A stretch of 33,412 nt of DNA from a virus, in the IMG/VR virus record IMGVR_UViG_3300047563_000182, positions 1-33,412 of that record, one strand, 5' to 3'. This document shows, in pieces, positions 1-29,343 of the stretch (position 1 is its first letter; the number at the start of each line of letters is the position of its first letter). Both the position numbers and the translations under genes were made by a program. The notes below the pieces were generated by a model. That model was given only the letters and a program-made list of their open reading frames with translations. It was not told where the DNA came from and searched no databases.

Positions 1-23
1 GTCTTCAGGTCCTGCAGATTCAT
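1..23 (-). CDS. 5' end of an unidentified gene, cut by the window edge
   Basis: An ATG on the minus strand at 23 opens a frame reading MNLQDLKT before the window ends. It is preceded by a good Shine-Dalgarno stretch (AAAGGAA) seven bases upstream. It lies downstream of the tRNA genes on the same strand, so it may be read by the same transcript. Eight residues are too few to name a product. Confidence 0.6.
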
Positions 24-182
24 GGTGCGTTCCTTTGTGGTGGTGCCGCCCGCCGTCGTTCCCGGGAGAACGTCGGGAGACTTGTTCTGCTCGCGTCGGC
101 ACCTGCGTCCGTTCGTCGCACGGTGCGCTGGCCGAGCCCGTGGCCGTGCGCTGGCGCGCGAGGATGGCCGGATGGGCTGTGG

Positions 183-257
183 TGGTTGCAGGCCCGGGGG
201 TTGAGCCCGGTATCTCTGGCTTATGGGGCCAGCGGATTGCCGTCTTCCTCGCCTGCG
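183..257 (-). tRNA. Initiator-like tRNA-Met (CAT anticodon)
   Basis: The minus strand folds into a 75-nt cloverleaf with an encoded CCA. The acceptor arms are CGCAGGC and GCCTGCA: pairs 2-7 are perfect, while position 1 is C opposite A72. That C1:A72 mismatch is the hallmark of bacterial initiator tRNA. The anticodon stem is CTGGC/GCCAG around the loop CCCATAA, giving anticodon CAT, and the T-stem is CCGGG/CCCGG. Two of the three initiator-type G:C pairs next to the anticodon loop are present; the innermost pair is C:G. Position 33 is C instead of the near-universal T. An elongator Met or a lysidine-type Ile tRNA is less likely because both start with a paired first base. Confidence 0.85.
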
Positions 258-262
258 GTAGA

Positions 263-335
263 TGGAGCGGGACCGGGAATCAAACCCGGGTAGGCAGCTT
301 GGAAGGCTGCGGCCTGGCCTCTAGGCTATGCCCGC
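263..335 (-). tRNA. tRNA-Gly (TCC anticodon)
   Basis: A 73-nt minus-strand cloverleaf with encoded CCA. The anticodon stem GCAGC/GCTGC carries the loop CTTCCAA (anticodon TCC), the D-stem is GCCT/AGGC and the T-stem CCGGG/CCCGG. The acceptor stem begins GCGGG and pairs with CCCGC. The inner end of the acceptor stem is irregular: the 3' strand is one base short and position 6 is not paired, so the gene may be slightly degenerate. It lies five bases upstream of the initiator-like tRNA in the same orientation, which suggests joint processing from one transcript. Confidence 0.85.
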
Positions 336-682
336 GTGTAGGTGGCCGGCAAACCTTCGATGATCCAGGGATCGGTGCGAAAGCGAGAAGGTGCCGGCCG
401 AAACGGCGAAGCCGCCTCAGTGGGCGGCTTCTGGAAGAAAAACGGGGCCGATCGACGTAGGCAAGAGCTCCGTGAGCCTCGGCCAGGTCGCCCTACGCAG
501 CACCTGGCTCTATAACTTCGACCGCGTGCTTGGATCACGCTTAGGCCCCTGGGGGGTGTATTCGTTCGCGGATGCGGCAGCCTGAACTCGTGTCCCTTGC
601 GGGAGCGCCTGCAACTCAGGCTCGAATTCACCTTGAAGCACCTGCCGTTCGCAGACCCCAGGGCGCCGCACTCTTCCGTGCG
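336..682 (-). ncRNA. Structured non-coding leader between a promoter and the tRNA pair
   Basis: About 345 bases carry no convincing reading frame; the frames that exist are low-complexity Arg/Pro/Ser translations. On the minus strand the stretch has several stem-loops: GCGTG/CACGC around a seven-base loop (524-540), CCAGGT/ACCTGG (483-507), AGCCTGA/TCAGGCT (579-622) enclosing a TCCC/GGGA hairpin, and GCCGCC/GGCGGC near 410-430. A sigma70-type promoter lies directly upstream and two tRNAs directly downstream. It could be a precursor or leader RNA, decayed tRNA genes, or an independent small RNA. No tmRNA tag or complete extra cloverleaf was found. Confidence 0.4.
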
Positions 683-2192: not shown

Positions 2193-2509
2193 ACGTCCTC
2201 CGGCACAGGTGGCAACGCCATCCAATGCGTGATCTGGCCTTGGTACACGGCTAGTGCGGTGTAGTCATCCCAGTTGTCAATCTGCTCGTACCAGCCCTCG
2301 GGGTCATAGTACGTATCTGTGGCTTCGTCGTATTCGCCAATCTCGCTCTCAGGGCCTGATTCGCAGGAATTGGCAGCAACCCATGCCGCGCGGATGCGGC
2401 GCAATTTCCCATTTTCGTTGCGGTAGCAGGCCAGCACGGTCGCGCCATTTTCTGGCATCTGGTCCGTGACGCGGACCCATTGGTTACTGGTGTTTGTTGA
2501 TGTGTTCAT
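2189..2509 (-). CDS. DUF551 family phage protein, second gene of cassette 2
   Basis: A 106-residue protein with the DUF551 layout: an N-terminal WVRVTDQMPENGATVLACYR stretch, an acidic aromatic middle and the near-terminal signature ITHWMALPPVP. DUF551 proteins are widespread in temperate and lytic phages; their role is unknown. The start at 2509 was chosen over the longer frame because ATG 2509 overlaps the stop of the preceding gene by four bases. It is translated as the middle gene of a tight three-gene set within one cassette. Confidence 0.85.
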   Translation of the reverse strand: MNTSTNTSNQWVRVTDQMPENGATVLACYRNENGKLRRIRAAWVAANSCESGPESEIGEYDEATDTYYDPEGWYEQIDNWDDYTALAVYQGQITHWMALPPVPEDV

Positions 2510-3168
2510 GGTCTGCACCGTTGCGCCAAGTTGACAAGCCACGCGGCCAGTGCGGGCGGCGTGTGCTCGCGTTCGGCCTTCGTCACAATCTTCAGCGTGC
2601 GCGGCACACCGCGCTGCGGTTTGATAACGCCAGTTGGCTCGCCACGCGGCGGCATCGGCGGCAATTCATCAGGATGGCAGCCCACGATATACAGCCATGT
2701 CAGTTTTTCGGCTTTGTGGCCCCAGTCGCATTGCCGAATCTCAGCCGTCCAGCCGCCGTACCGATCCGGCGCGCGGCCTGGTGTTGGCAGGCCCATGCAG
2801 GCCCATAGCGTGCTCTCTGCAGGATGCTCCAGCACGCCACCGAAGCGCTGAACGTGTCGCACGGCATCAATCGCAAGCTGTCGCTCCATCGCTGGGTCTT
2901 TTGCCTTGGCAAACTGCCGCAGCTTCGCCCACAGCCGACACGGCGGGTGCGCCACCAGCGGCACACCACCAGGCCAATGGCGCGCGTCTCGGGCCTCGTC
3001 CCACACGTCCACCGCAGGCAGCGCCTTGTAGTGGCTGTCTGCGCGGCAAAACAGAGCAGCTACCGCGCGGGTGAGGCCCAACCCTTCGCTCAAGCGGAGC
3101 GCCAACGGCATGCCACAAAGCCCGCCAGCCGGGTTGGCACATGTTCCGTCCGTCGGGCTTTGTGTCAT
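2506..3168 (-). CDS. Phage protein with HPPCRLW and LEHPAESTLW motifs, first gene of cassette 2
   Basis: A 220-residue protein of a family found in many Burkholderiales prophages, without a known function. Conserved stretches include AHPPCRLWAKLRQFAKA, GGVLEHPAESTLW, CDWGHKAEKLTWLYIVG and a C-terminal EREHTPPALAAWLV. The PPC and EHP motifs are reminiscent of catalytic motif IV and the ENV motif of cytosine-5 methyltransferases, but no full SAM-binding fold is seen, so this is only a resemblance. ATG 3168 lies inside attC2 behind a GGGAGA ribosome-binding site. An alternative start at 3111 (MPLALRLSEGLG) also lies in the attC. The segment encoding LALRLSEGLG is attC-derived. Confidence 0.75.
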   Translation of the reverse strand: MTQSPTDGTCANPAGGLCGMPLALRLSEGLGLTRAVAALFCRADSHYKALPAVDVWDEARDARHWPGGVPLVAHPPCRLWAKLRQFAKAKDPAMERQLAIDAVRHVQRFGGVLEHPAESTLWACMGLPTPGRAPDRYGGWTAEIRQCDWGHKAEKLTWLYIVGCHPDELPPMPPRGEPTGVIKPQRGVPRTLKIVTKAEREHTPPALAAWLVNLAQRCRP

Positions 3169-26882: not shown

Positions 26883-27268
26883 GGCGCGCTGCTCCCCTTG
26901 AAGAACGAAACAAGGCCCGGCCAGCCGAAGTAATGCCAGATCACAAGTGCACCGATGCCAAGCCAGAACAAGCGCTTCAGCGCTGTCTTCAGGCCGCCCA
27001 CCAGCCAGGATCCGACCTGCTTCTGGGCCAGCGCGCTGACTTTCTCGCTGCACTTTTCCCAGGTCCTGTCGCTCTCGATGAATTCGTGCAGAGCGGCAGA
27101 GAAGGCACGCTTCATCGCCTCTTCGGTGGCCGGCGGCGCGATACCTTCAACCGATTCGTGCAGGTTTCCCAGCTTCTCGATGATGTGCACCCGAAAGGCG
27201 TGCTCGCTCAACGGTTCGTGTGTCTGGTGGCTGCCGATGATGTGCAGGTCGTCGGCTGATGTGGTCAT
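26879..27268 (-). CDS. Holin-like membrane protein
   Basis: A 129-residue protein. A long soluble, charged N-terminal part (EHAFRVHIIEKLGNLHESVE) precedes one clear membrane segment at about 100-124 (LFWLGIGALVIWHYFGWPGL). Location directly upstream of the endolysin and overlap by four bases support a holin or a holin regulator. The large cytoplasmic domain is unlike the smallest holins. Confidence 0.68.
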   Translation of the reverse strand: MTTSADDLHIIGSHQTHEPLSEHAFRVHIIEKLGNLHESVEGIAPPATEEAMKRAFSAALHEFIESDRTWEKCSEKVSALAQKQVGSWLVGGLKTALKRLFWLGIGALVIWHYFGWPGLVSFFKGSSAP

Positions 27269-29343
27269 GTGAGGCTTGTGATGGAGGCGTCGAAAGAAGC
27301 GGATGCCGAAAGTCCATTAGCGTCGCGCGCGGTCACTGTCAGCGTGGCATAGGTGTCGCCACCCGATGCACAGGTCGCGTACAGGACCACGGTGGCGGCA
27401 TTGATGCTGCTCTGAATCCACATATTCGCCGCGTTGGGTTGTGTGTTGGAAATCGCCCAGCTGTAGGTGATCGGCGCCGTGCCACCGGTGGCCGCAGCCG
27501 TGCGGTGGCCGATCAGCCCCGGCCCGAAGGAAAGCCCTGCCCCCACGGTCTTGAGAATGTCGCCGCCGCCGATCGACACGCTCGGGCCACCGAAGGCAAC
27601 CTGTGCCGCGGGGATGGTTCCGCTGATAGCAATGGCTGGCACGGTCAGCGTGGTGCCGTCAAAGGTCAGGCCGCCGAAACTCAATTTGTAGGCGCCGCCG
27701 CTGTAGCCCAGGAAGAACCCGCCGGCCTGGCCATAGGCACTCACGCCGCCCAGGATGGCGCTGGTGCTGCTCATGGTCAGGTTGCCGGTCACGCTCAGGG
27801 CGCCGGTGTTCGCCGTGATGGCCGACAGGGCGCCCACTTTCAGCGACGCCTGGTAGGGCAGGCCCCAGACCGTGTTCCCGGTGCCTGGGTCATAGACCCC
27901 GTTCGTCTGGAAGACGCTCTGGCCCGCGGTAACCGTGGGCACGGTCGCGCTCCAGCTTTCGCTGCCGCCCCAGGAGTTCGTCGGCGGGAAACTGCTGCTG
28001 CCGCTGGTGGTCAGCGTCGTCGGCGTGGAGTTCAGGCTGAAGCCGGTCACCAGGGCGTAGGCGATGCGGGTCGAAGCGCCGGCTGTGCCGTTCGTGCCGT
28101 TGCTGCCCGCCGCGCCGGTCGCGCCAGTGGCGCCCGTCGCCCCGGTCGCGCCATTCGTGCCGGCATAGCCGCGCGCCGTGATGATCGCGCTGGTCCAGTT
28201 GAAGCCGGTGGTGGTGTTGGCTGCGCTGTCGACCACCTGCACGGTGGCGGCCCAGAGCGTGAAGCCCACCGAAGGCGACGTGCCTGGCGTCAGGGTCCAG
28301 CCGCTGGGTGCCGACCCGAAGCCGCTGGTGGCCCAGGTGTAGGTCGCTGCACCGGTGGGCCCGGATGGCAGCGTGGCCGCCCATTGGTAGACCGTCGGCT
28401 CTGCCGACTGCGTGCCATTGGCCCCGGCCGCGCCGTTGGACCCGGCAGGACCTGCGGGGCCCGTGGACCCGGTCGGTCCCGTGGATCCGGCAGGCCCGGT
28501 GGACCCGGCCGGCCCAGTCGGTCCCGTGGCGCCAGCTGCACCTGCCGCGCCAGCTGCGCCTGCCGCGCCTGCCGTGCCGGCCTGGCTCTTGCTGATGTTG
28601 AAGACCTTGGTCAGCGTCACGCCGCCATAGACGGCCTGCAGCGTGGCGAAGCCGCTGGCCGCCGACATCGCGGTGATCGCGTAGGCGCCTGACGATGCGT
28701 TGATCGTCGCGGTCACATTGGTCGATGACGCCACGCTGTAGACCGGGCCGGCGCCGGTCACGTCGGACGTTCCGTTGAAGACCTTGAAGGTGCCCACGGC
28801 ACCGGAGAAGTCGGAGACCGTGCCGCCGCTGTCGGCACTGACGGCCACCGCTTCGTTGGTCAGCATGCCCACGATGGCATTGGCTCCGGCCGCGCCGTCC
28901 GAGATCCGCACCACCGTGATCTGGTCGCTGTAGATCCCGCTGGTGGCCACCACGACCGCATAGGCCGCTGCCGCGAAGTTGGCCACGGTGAGCGTGCGCG
29001 TCGCGCCGCTGCCGCCAAGGGGAAGCGTGCCCAGACTGGCGCCACTGGAGTCGTATCCCGTGGCCGCGAAGGTGGGCGAGCCCGCCAGGTTCACCAGCTG
29101 CGCCGCGAAGGTGATGGTCTGGCCAGAAGGCGACGCACCGCCAGCCGCGTTGAACTTGAAGGTCTGCGCGGTGGCGCTCATGACCACCATCGACGCGCCG
29201 GTGCCGCCAGAGATGAGGCCATCCACGGCCTGGCTGACGGTGAGCACGCCAGCCGCTAGGCCTGAGAAATTCGCGTCCGCTTCCGCCCACGTGACCTCGC
29301 GGCCGAGGGCTGTGCGGGTAGTGACAGGGACGATGACGGCCAT
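27265..29343 (-). CDS. Tail fibre/tail protein with collagen-like repeats
   Basis: A 692-residue protein. The N-terminus (MAVIVPVTTRTALGREVTWA) is a phage tail-attachment type. Ala/Gly/Ser-rich strand regions follow. Two Gly-x-y tracts are at about residues 250-310 and 400-435, the first including ATGPTGPAGSTGPAGSTGPT. The C-terminal half has repeated beta segments. Collagen-like tracts form trimeric rods in phage fibres. It overlaps the holin-like gene by four bases and is the last structural gene before lysis. Confidence 0.85.
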   Translation of the reverse strand: MAVIVPVTTRTALGREVTWAEADANFSGLAAGVLTVSQAVDGLISGGTGASMVVMSATAQTFKFNAAGGASPSGQTITFAAQLVNLAGSPTFAATGYDSSGASLGTLPLGGSGATRTLTVANFAAAAYAVVVATSGIYSDQITVVRISDGAAGANAIVGMLTNEAVAVSADSGGTVSDFSGAVGTFKVFNGTSDVTGAGPVYSVASSTNVTATINASSGAYAITAMSAASGFATLQAVYGGVTLTKVFNISKSQAGTAGAAGAAGAAGAAGATGPTGPAGSTGPAGSTGPTGSTGPAGPAGSNGAAGANGTQSAEPTVYQWAATLPSGPTGAATYTWATSGFGSAPSGWTLTPGTSPSVGFTLWAATVQVVDSAANTTTGFNWTSAIITARGYAGTNGATGATGATGATGAAGSNGTNGTAGASTRIAYALVTGFSLNSTPTTLTTSGSSSFPPTNSWGGSESWSATVPTVTAGQSVFQTNGVYDPGTGNTVWGLPYQASLKVGALSAITANTGALSVTGNLTMSSTSAILGGVSAYGQAGGFFLGYSGGAYKLSFGGLTFDGTTLTVPAIAISGTIPAAQVAFGGPSVSIGGGDILKTVGAGLSFGPGLIGHRTAAATGGTAPITYSWAISNTQPNAANMWIQSSINAATVVLYATCASGGDTYATLTVTARDANGLSASASFDASITSLT
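28080..28165 (-). repeat. Collagen-like tract 2
   Basis: Codons for Gly-Ala-Thr and Gly-Thr-Asn triplets in near-tandem nine-base units (residues about 395-420 of the fibre). Such tracts change length easily by slippage or recombination. Confidence 0.7.
28425..28585 (-). repeat. Collagen-like tract 1
   Basis: A run of Gly-x-y codons, with Gly-Ala-Ala, Gly-Pro-Thr/Ala and Gly-Ser-Thr units repeated in near-identical DNA. It forms the longer triple-helix segment of the fibre. Confidence 0.75.

Follow-up and report, generated by a model that had tools for sequence, protein, structure and literature searches.

A putative initiator tRNA with C33 encoded by a phage, and C33 among viral initiator-like tRNAs

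In bacteria, position 33 of tRNA is almost invariably U, and the anticodon loop makes its U-turn at this base. Nearly all tRNAs share U33, which does not set initiators apart. Here, we describe a phage locus that appears to encode an initiator tRNA with C33 instead. Is this tRNA really of the initiator type, and what might C33 do for it? Phage-encoded tRNA-fMet is known, and the new element is its C33 variant.

The window (the whole 33,412-base stretch of an IMG/VR virus record, 66% GC) contains phage-type genes, among them those for two recombination proteins (ERF and YqaJ) and for a Baseplate_J protein, with further matches to replication, HNH endonuclease, and endolysin functions. It also encodes a 692-amino-acid protein (positions 27265 to 29343, minus strand) with collagen-like, glycine-rich repeats (GAAGAAGAAGATG...), which is probably a tail fiber. 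A gene at 2506 to 3168 on the minus strand encodes a phrog_12600 protein. Relatives of this protein occur in dsDNA phages and microviruses, and their annotations vary (hypothetical, ParB-like, and DNA methylase).

The CAU tRNA and its class

The CAU tRNA gene occupies positions 183 to 257 on the minus strand and is 75 nucleotides long, including an encoded CCA. From 257 to 183, it reads CGCAGGC GA GGAAGACGGCAATCC G CTGGC CCCATAA GCCAG AGATA CCGGG CTCAACC CCCGG GCCTGCA A CCA. Its immediate upstream neighbor, a few bases away on the same strand, is a tRNA-Gly(UCC) gene with a normal U33 (264 to 336, minus strand; found by ARAGORN and by Rfam with 43.3 bits). Downstream is the start of a gene (MNLQDLK..., positions 1 to 24, minus strand) that is preceded by AAAGGA and truncated by the contig end. 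Default ARAGORN and Rfam RF00005 searches of the window missed the CAU tRNA and reported only tRNA-Gly. However, ARAGORN with a relaxed threshold (-ps90) folded it in the same way as the original prediction. Default tRNA finders can therefore overlook C33 initiator genes of this kind.

In the acceptor stem, positions 2 to 7 of the 5' strand (251 to 257, with C1 at 257) pair with positions 66 to 71 of the 3' strand (187 to 193, with A72 at 187), leaving a C1xA72 mismatch. A73 is at 186 and the CCA is at 185 to 183. The 5' strand of the anticodon stem is CUGGC (positions 27 to 31, at 228 to 232), in which G29 and G30 retain the G29:C41 and G30:C40 pairs and C31 forms a reversed innermost pair, C31:G39. 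The anticodon loop is CCCAUAA (221 to 227), with C33 at 226 and the CAU anticodon at 225 to 223. Thus, the C1:A72 mismatch, the CAU anticodon, the two of three G:C anticodon stem pairs, the reversed innermost pair, and the C33 that had been predicted are all present in the minus-strand sequence and the relaxed ARAGORN fold. All stems are paired except for A13xA22 and the expected C1xA72, and one of the acceptor pairs is A4:U69. Determinants of formylation are in place (G2:C71, C3:G70, and a purine 11:pyrimidine 24 pair); in the covariance model alignment, the latter is G11:C24, as in initiators. Some other positions are unusual. There is G8 for U8, G14 for A14, and A15 and A48 without a Levitt pair. 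The T loop is CUCAACC (199 to 205) with C54, and the window tRNA is the only one with C54 among 179 dereplicated initiator-like tRNAs (among the matches listed).

Thirty-six initiator-like viral tRNAs with T33, excluding the window tRNA, were used to build an initiator covariance model, which we ran on the whole window. The CAU tRNA was the top match (69.2 bits; E value, 1.1e-16), 32 bits clear of tRNA-Gly (37.4 bits), and the next match scored 10.8 bits. A second model, made from 22 viral CAU tRNAs of the elongator-Met and Ile2 types, gave it 46.1 bits. The higher initiator score, together with C1xA72, G2:C71, C3:G70, G11:C24, G29:C41, G30:C40, and A73, argues that the CAU tRNA is of the initiator type, as originally predicted. 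That it might be an elongator tRNA-Met or a lysidine-modified tRNA-Ile2 is scarcely credible. The CAU anticodon and A73 are common to all three classes, but the unpaired C1xA72, purine 11, G29:C41 and G30:C40, and the lower score of the second model all speak against it. A paired first base or an assignment to the Ile2 or elongator class had been named as outcomes that would count against an initiator, and neither was found.

C33 in viral, phage, and bacterial tRNAs

We scanned IMG/VR for a C33 pattern (CCCATAA, the T loop, and A72-A73-CCA) which matched at least 120 stretches. Of the matches listed, 101 fold as full tRNAs, so that such folds occur in at least 101 viral stretches. Dereplication gave 73 clusters below 90% similarity (among the matches listed). 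These take in the window tRNA, one bacterial locus (L237), and two tRNAs from a separate scan with 9 to 11 bases between C41 and T54 (12 is normal), which covered short variable loops only. For 22 of the 73 clusters, the nearest other tRNA had T33 and not C33 (among the matches listed), as in the case of L104 and L181, which are two bases apart. Therefore, C33 appears to have arisen more than once. In a viral sample that allowed either pyrimidine, there were 93 T33 tRNAs and 2 with C33, a C33 share of 2/95 (95% interval, 0.3 to 7.4%). A complete IMG/VR scan for A33 or G33 returned 94 stretches, only one of which folds as a tRNA. This one (L560) is initiator-like and has G33, and it is alone among the folded viral tRNAs of that scan in having a purine there. 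Mutation free of selection predicts far more purine transversions than were seen, which argues that position 33 is kept as a pyrimidine and that the C33 genes probably encode functional tRNAs.

Isolated phages also have initiator-like tRNAs of both kinds. C33 is present in the CAU tRNAs of Pseudomonas phage D3 (83.9 bits with the initiator model) and Janthinobacterium phage Donnerlittchen (82.6 bits). T33 is present in those of Aeromonas AP1, Komagataeibacter phiKX1, Caulobacter CcrSC, Sinorhizobium phiLM21, Erythrobacter ZS04, and Agrobacterium Atu_ph07. The D3 tRNA has 98.7 to 100% identity to those of its close relatives FBPa47, BUCT566, Haboob, and phPA-G, with position 33 read in D3 only. 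Closer to the window phage, none of 35 records sharing the gene at 2506 to 3168 had the initiator pattern, and among 35 records with the baseplate gene in common, 33 had no initiator-like tRNA. The other two had a strong match, and L511, the one that was read, has T33; a third baseplate gene relative had a weak tRNA match. With two strong matches in these two sets of 35, the CAU tRNA does not appear to be a conserved neighbor in the window's phage group.

We also surveyed bacterial genomes, all from a single phylum. The C33 initiator pattern was found in none of 398 Pseudomonadota genomes besides the seed genome, and the T33 pattern was found in 36 of 50, at 57 places. The seed genome is a Defluviicoccus metagenome-assembled genome with one C33 gene plus two T33 copies. 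Its C33 gene adjoins a ParB/methylase-like gene and a gene for a small phage-type membrane protein (both judged by eye, without a family search). With such phage-type neighbors, it is probably in a prophage. All 57 of the T33 Pseudomonadota matches have C39-C40, whereas the raw viral sample contains 93 T33 tRNAs that fold, 51 of which have something other than G31:C39. This suggests that viruses also tend to alter the innermost pair, as the window tRNA does. The G30:C40 pair is kept in 70 of 73 C33 and 101 of 106 T33 viral tRNAs, and U8 is replaced in 20 of 73 and 16 of 106, respectively (all among the matches listed). We considered whether C33 and the reversed innermost pair were peculiar to the window phage, and rejected this because both recur in viral initiator-like tRNAs.

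The scans brought up other forms. At seven loci (L004, L025, L043, L065, L111, L115, and L119), an initiator tRNA is represented by its 3' half alone, as would be expected for attachment sites of elements that integrate into a tRNA-fMet gene. Some viral initiator-like tRNAs (L014, L042, L058, and L141) have odd D-arms, very long or very short; the L014 tRNA is 83 nucleotides and the L141 tRNA is about 71. In three unrelated phages (L121, L504, and L506), an initiator-like tRNA adjoins terminase genes (L121 was judged by sequence only).

Nor is C33 confined to initiators; we rejected this idea because phage elongator tRNAs carry it too. In the either-pyrimidine sample, C33 was present in 12 of 523 (about 2.3%) non-CAU phage tRNAs. 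At loci with a C33 initiator, it was present in 8 of 101 non-CAU tRNAs (among the matches listed), and this contrast has a Fisher P value of 0.008, although tRNAs within a genome are not independent. Because C33 also occurs outside initiators, it seems to be part of a wider looseness of, or pressure on, phage anticodon loops. Among elongators, phage tRNA-Ile(GAU) stands far above the others, with C33 in 8 of 35 distinct genes (e.g., at L136, L148, L178, L207, L208, L272, L275, and L325), and T33 was present in every one of the small number of host tRNA-Ile matches that were sampled. The L208 viral contig has at least seven tRNAs of differing identity, all of them with C33, as if U33 had been widely replaced in that genome.

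What the C33 initiator might do

Several VapC toxins cleave tRNAs at the junction of the anticodon stem and loop, and tRNA-fMet is among their targets (PMC8522696). Phage tRNAs with altered anticodon loops have been proposed to resist nucleases such as VapC, PrrC, and colicin (PMC10264068). We tentatively favor, at close to even confidence, an explanation in which the CAU tRNA is a working initiator supplied by the phage, with an altered anticodon arm that is likely spared by host anticodon nucleases. It would probably be transcribed together with tRNA-Gly. The host MetRS would charge it (via CAU and A73), the host Fmt would formylate it (via C1xA72, G2:C71, and C3:G70), and IF2 would deliver it to the 30S P site (via G29:C41 and G30:C40). 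Initiation could then go on when the host tRNA-fMet is scarce or cleaved. C33 and the reversed 31:39 pair would leave function intact while altering the anticodon arm that nucleases such as VapC recognize, and with this arm altered the tRNA would likely be spared. We infer expression, charging, formylation, and nuclease evasion. Having both C33 and G39 is consistent with evasion without proving it, and it is plausible, in line with the published proposal, that the CAU tRNA would help the phage to survive host tRNA cleavage. A bolder version, in which phages repeatedly evolved a U33C initiator with an animal-like loop as a nuclease-proof starter that keeps translation going while host tRNA-fMet is being destroyed by the host itself, seems unlikely to us.

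A functional initiator might instead just top up the pool, with C33 and the other oddities being tolerated drift that has no role against nucleases. We regard this as a serious possibility, although short of an even chance. Transitions are the easiest change, the window copy has several other unusual positions, and C33 also turns up among phage elongator tRNAs (about 2.3%), which counts against an adaptation specific to initiators. However, the near exclusion of purine 33 and the repeated origins show constraint, although they do not show a benefit of C. We place evasion slightly ahead of tolerated drift. The window tRNA may also be weak in function, because it is without U8, A14, the 15:48 pair, and U54. 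Taken further, the loss of that pair and the presence of G8, G14, and C54 could mean a degenerate gene or a tRNA-like remnant, such as an attachment site, that is inactive in translation. Default ARAGORN and Rfam did miss the gene, and other matches to the pattern are an initiator 3' half (for example, at L004, L025, and L065). Even so, this is improbable. The window gene is full length with an intact CCA, scores 69 bits, and has paired stems except for A13xA22 and C1xA72, and about one in four viral C33 tRNAs likewise has another base in place of U8 (among the matches listed). Finally, the original prediction raised the idea that such a tRNA might shift start codon choice toward GTG, TTG, or overlapping starts. 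Nothing beyond its impression of such starts supports this, and we consider it very improbable. The anticodon remains CAU, and frames starting with GTG or TTG are numerous because ORFs were listed mechanically in a sequence with 66% GC.

Comparison with known initiator and phage tRNAs

The window tRNA shares with bacterial tRNA-fMet the CAU anticodon, C1xA72, G2:C71, C3:G70, G29:C41, G30:C40, purine 11:pyrimidine 24, and A73-CCA. It differs in having C33 for U33, C31:G39 for G31:C39, A4:U69, G8, G14, and C54. Despite C33, we treat it as a tRNA-fMet variant, given that viral initiators which are normal in other respects repeatedly have C33. The two pairs reported to be needed for efficient protein synthesis, G29:C41 and G30:C40 (PMC11231383), are both kept.

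Metazoan cytoplasmic initiator tRNA naturally has C33 rather than U33 (PMC9023262). Therefore, an initiator can work with C33, at least on eukaryotic ribosomes. However, metazoan initiators have A1:U72 and A54 and are not formylated, and their origin is unrelated, so this is a resemblance only. A literature search, in which subscription journals were thinly covered, found no description, for phages or bacteria, of an initiator tRNA with C33. Shigella flexneri phages are reported to generally avoid tRNA-fMet genes (PMC10264068), which counts against our favored explanation, as does the scarcity of initiator-like tRNAs in the records sharing the window's baseplate and 2506 to 3168 genes. Phage tRNAs described in that study share with the window tRNA an anticodon loop that is changed relative to that of the host, and its main text makes no mention of position 33 or U33.

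The D3 tRNA, which is annotated as a plain tRNA-Met, is another known example to compare. Like the window tRNA, it is phage encoded and initiator-like, has the CCCATAA loop with C33, and has a tRNA-Gly nearby (its neighbors are tRNA-Gly for the GGA codon, Asn, and Thr). It differs in having C1:U72, normal G29-G31:C39-C41 pairs, and U54. With D3, a classical laboratory phage, and the other natural C33 initiators, two questions can be addressed by experiment: is U33 needed for bacterial initiation, and do phage initiators resist the toxins that cut tRNA-fMet?
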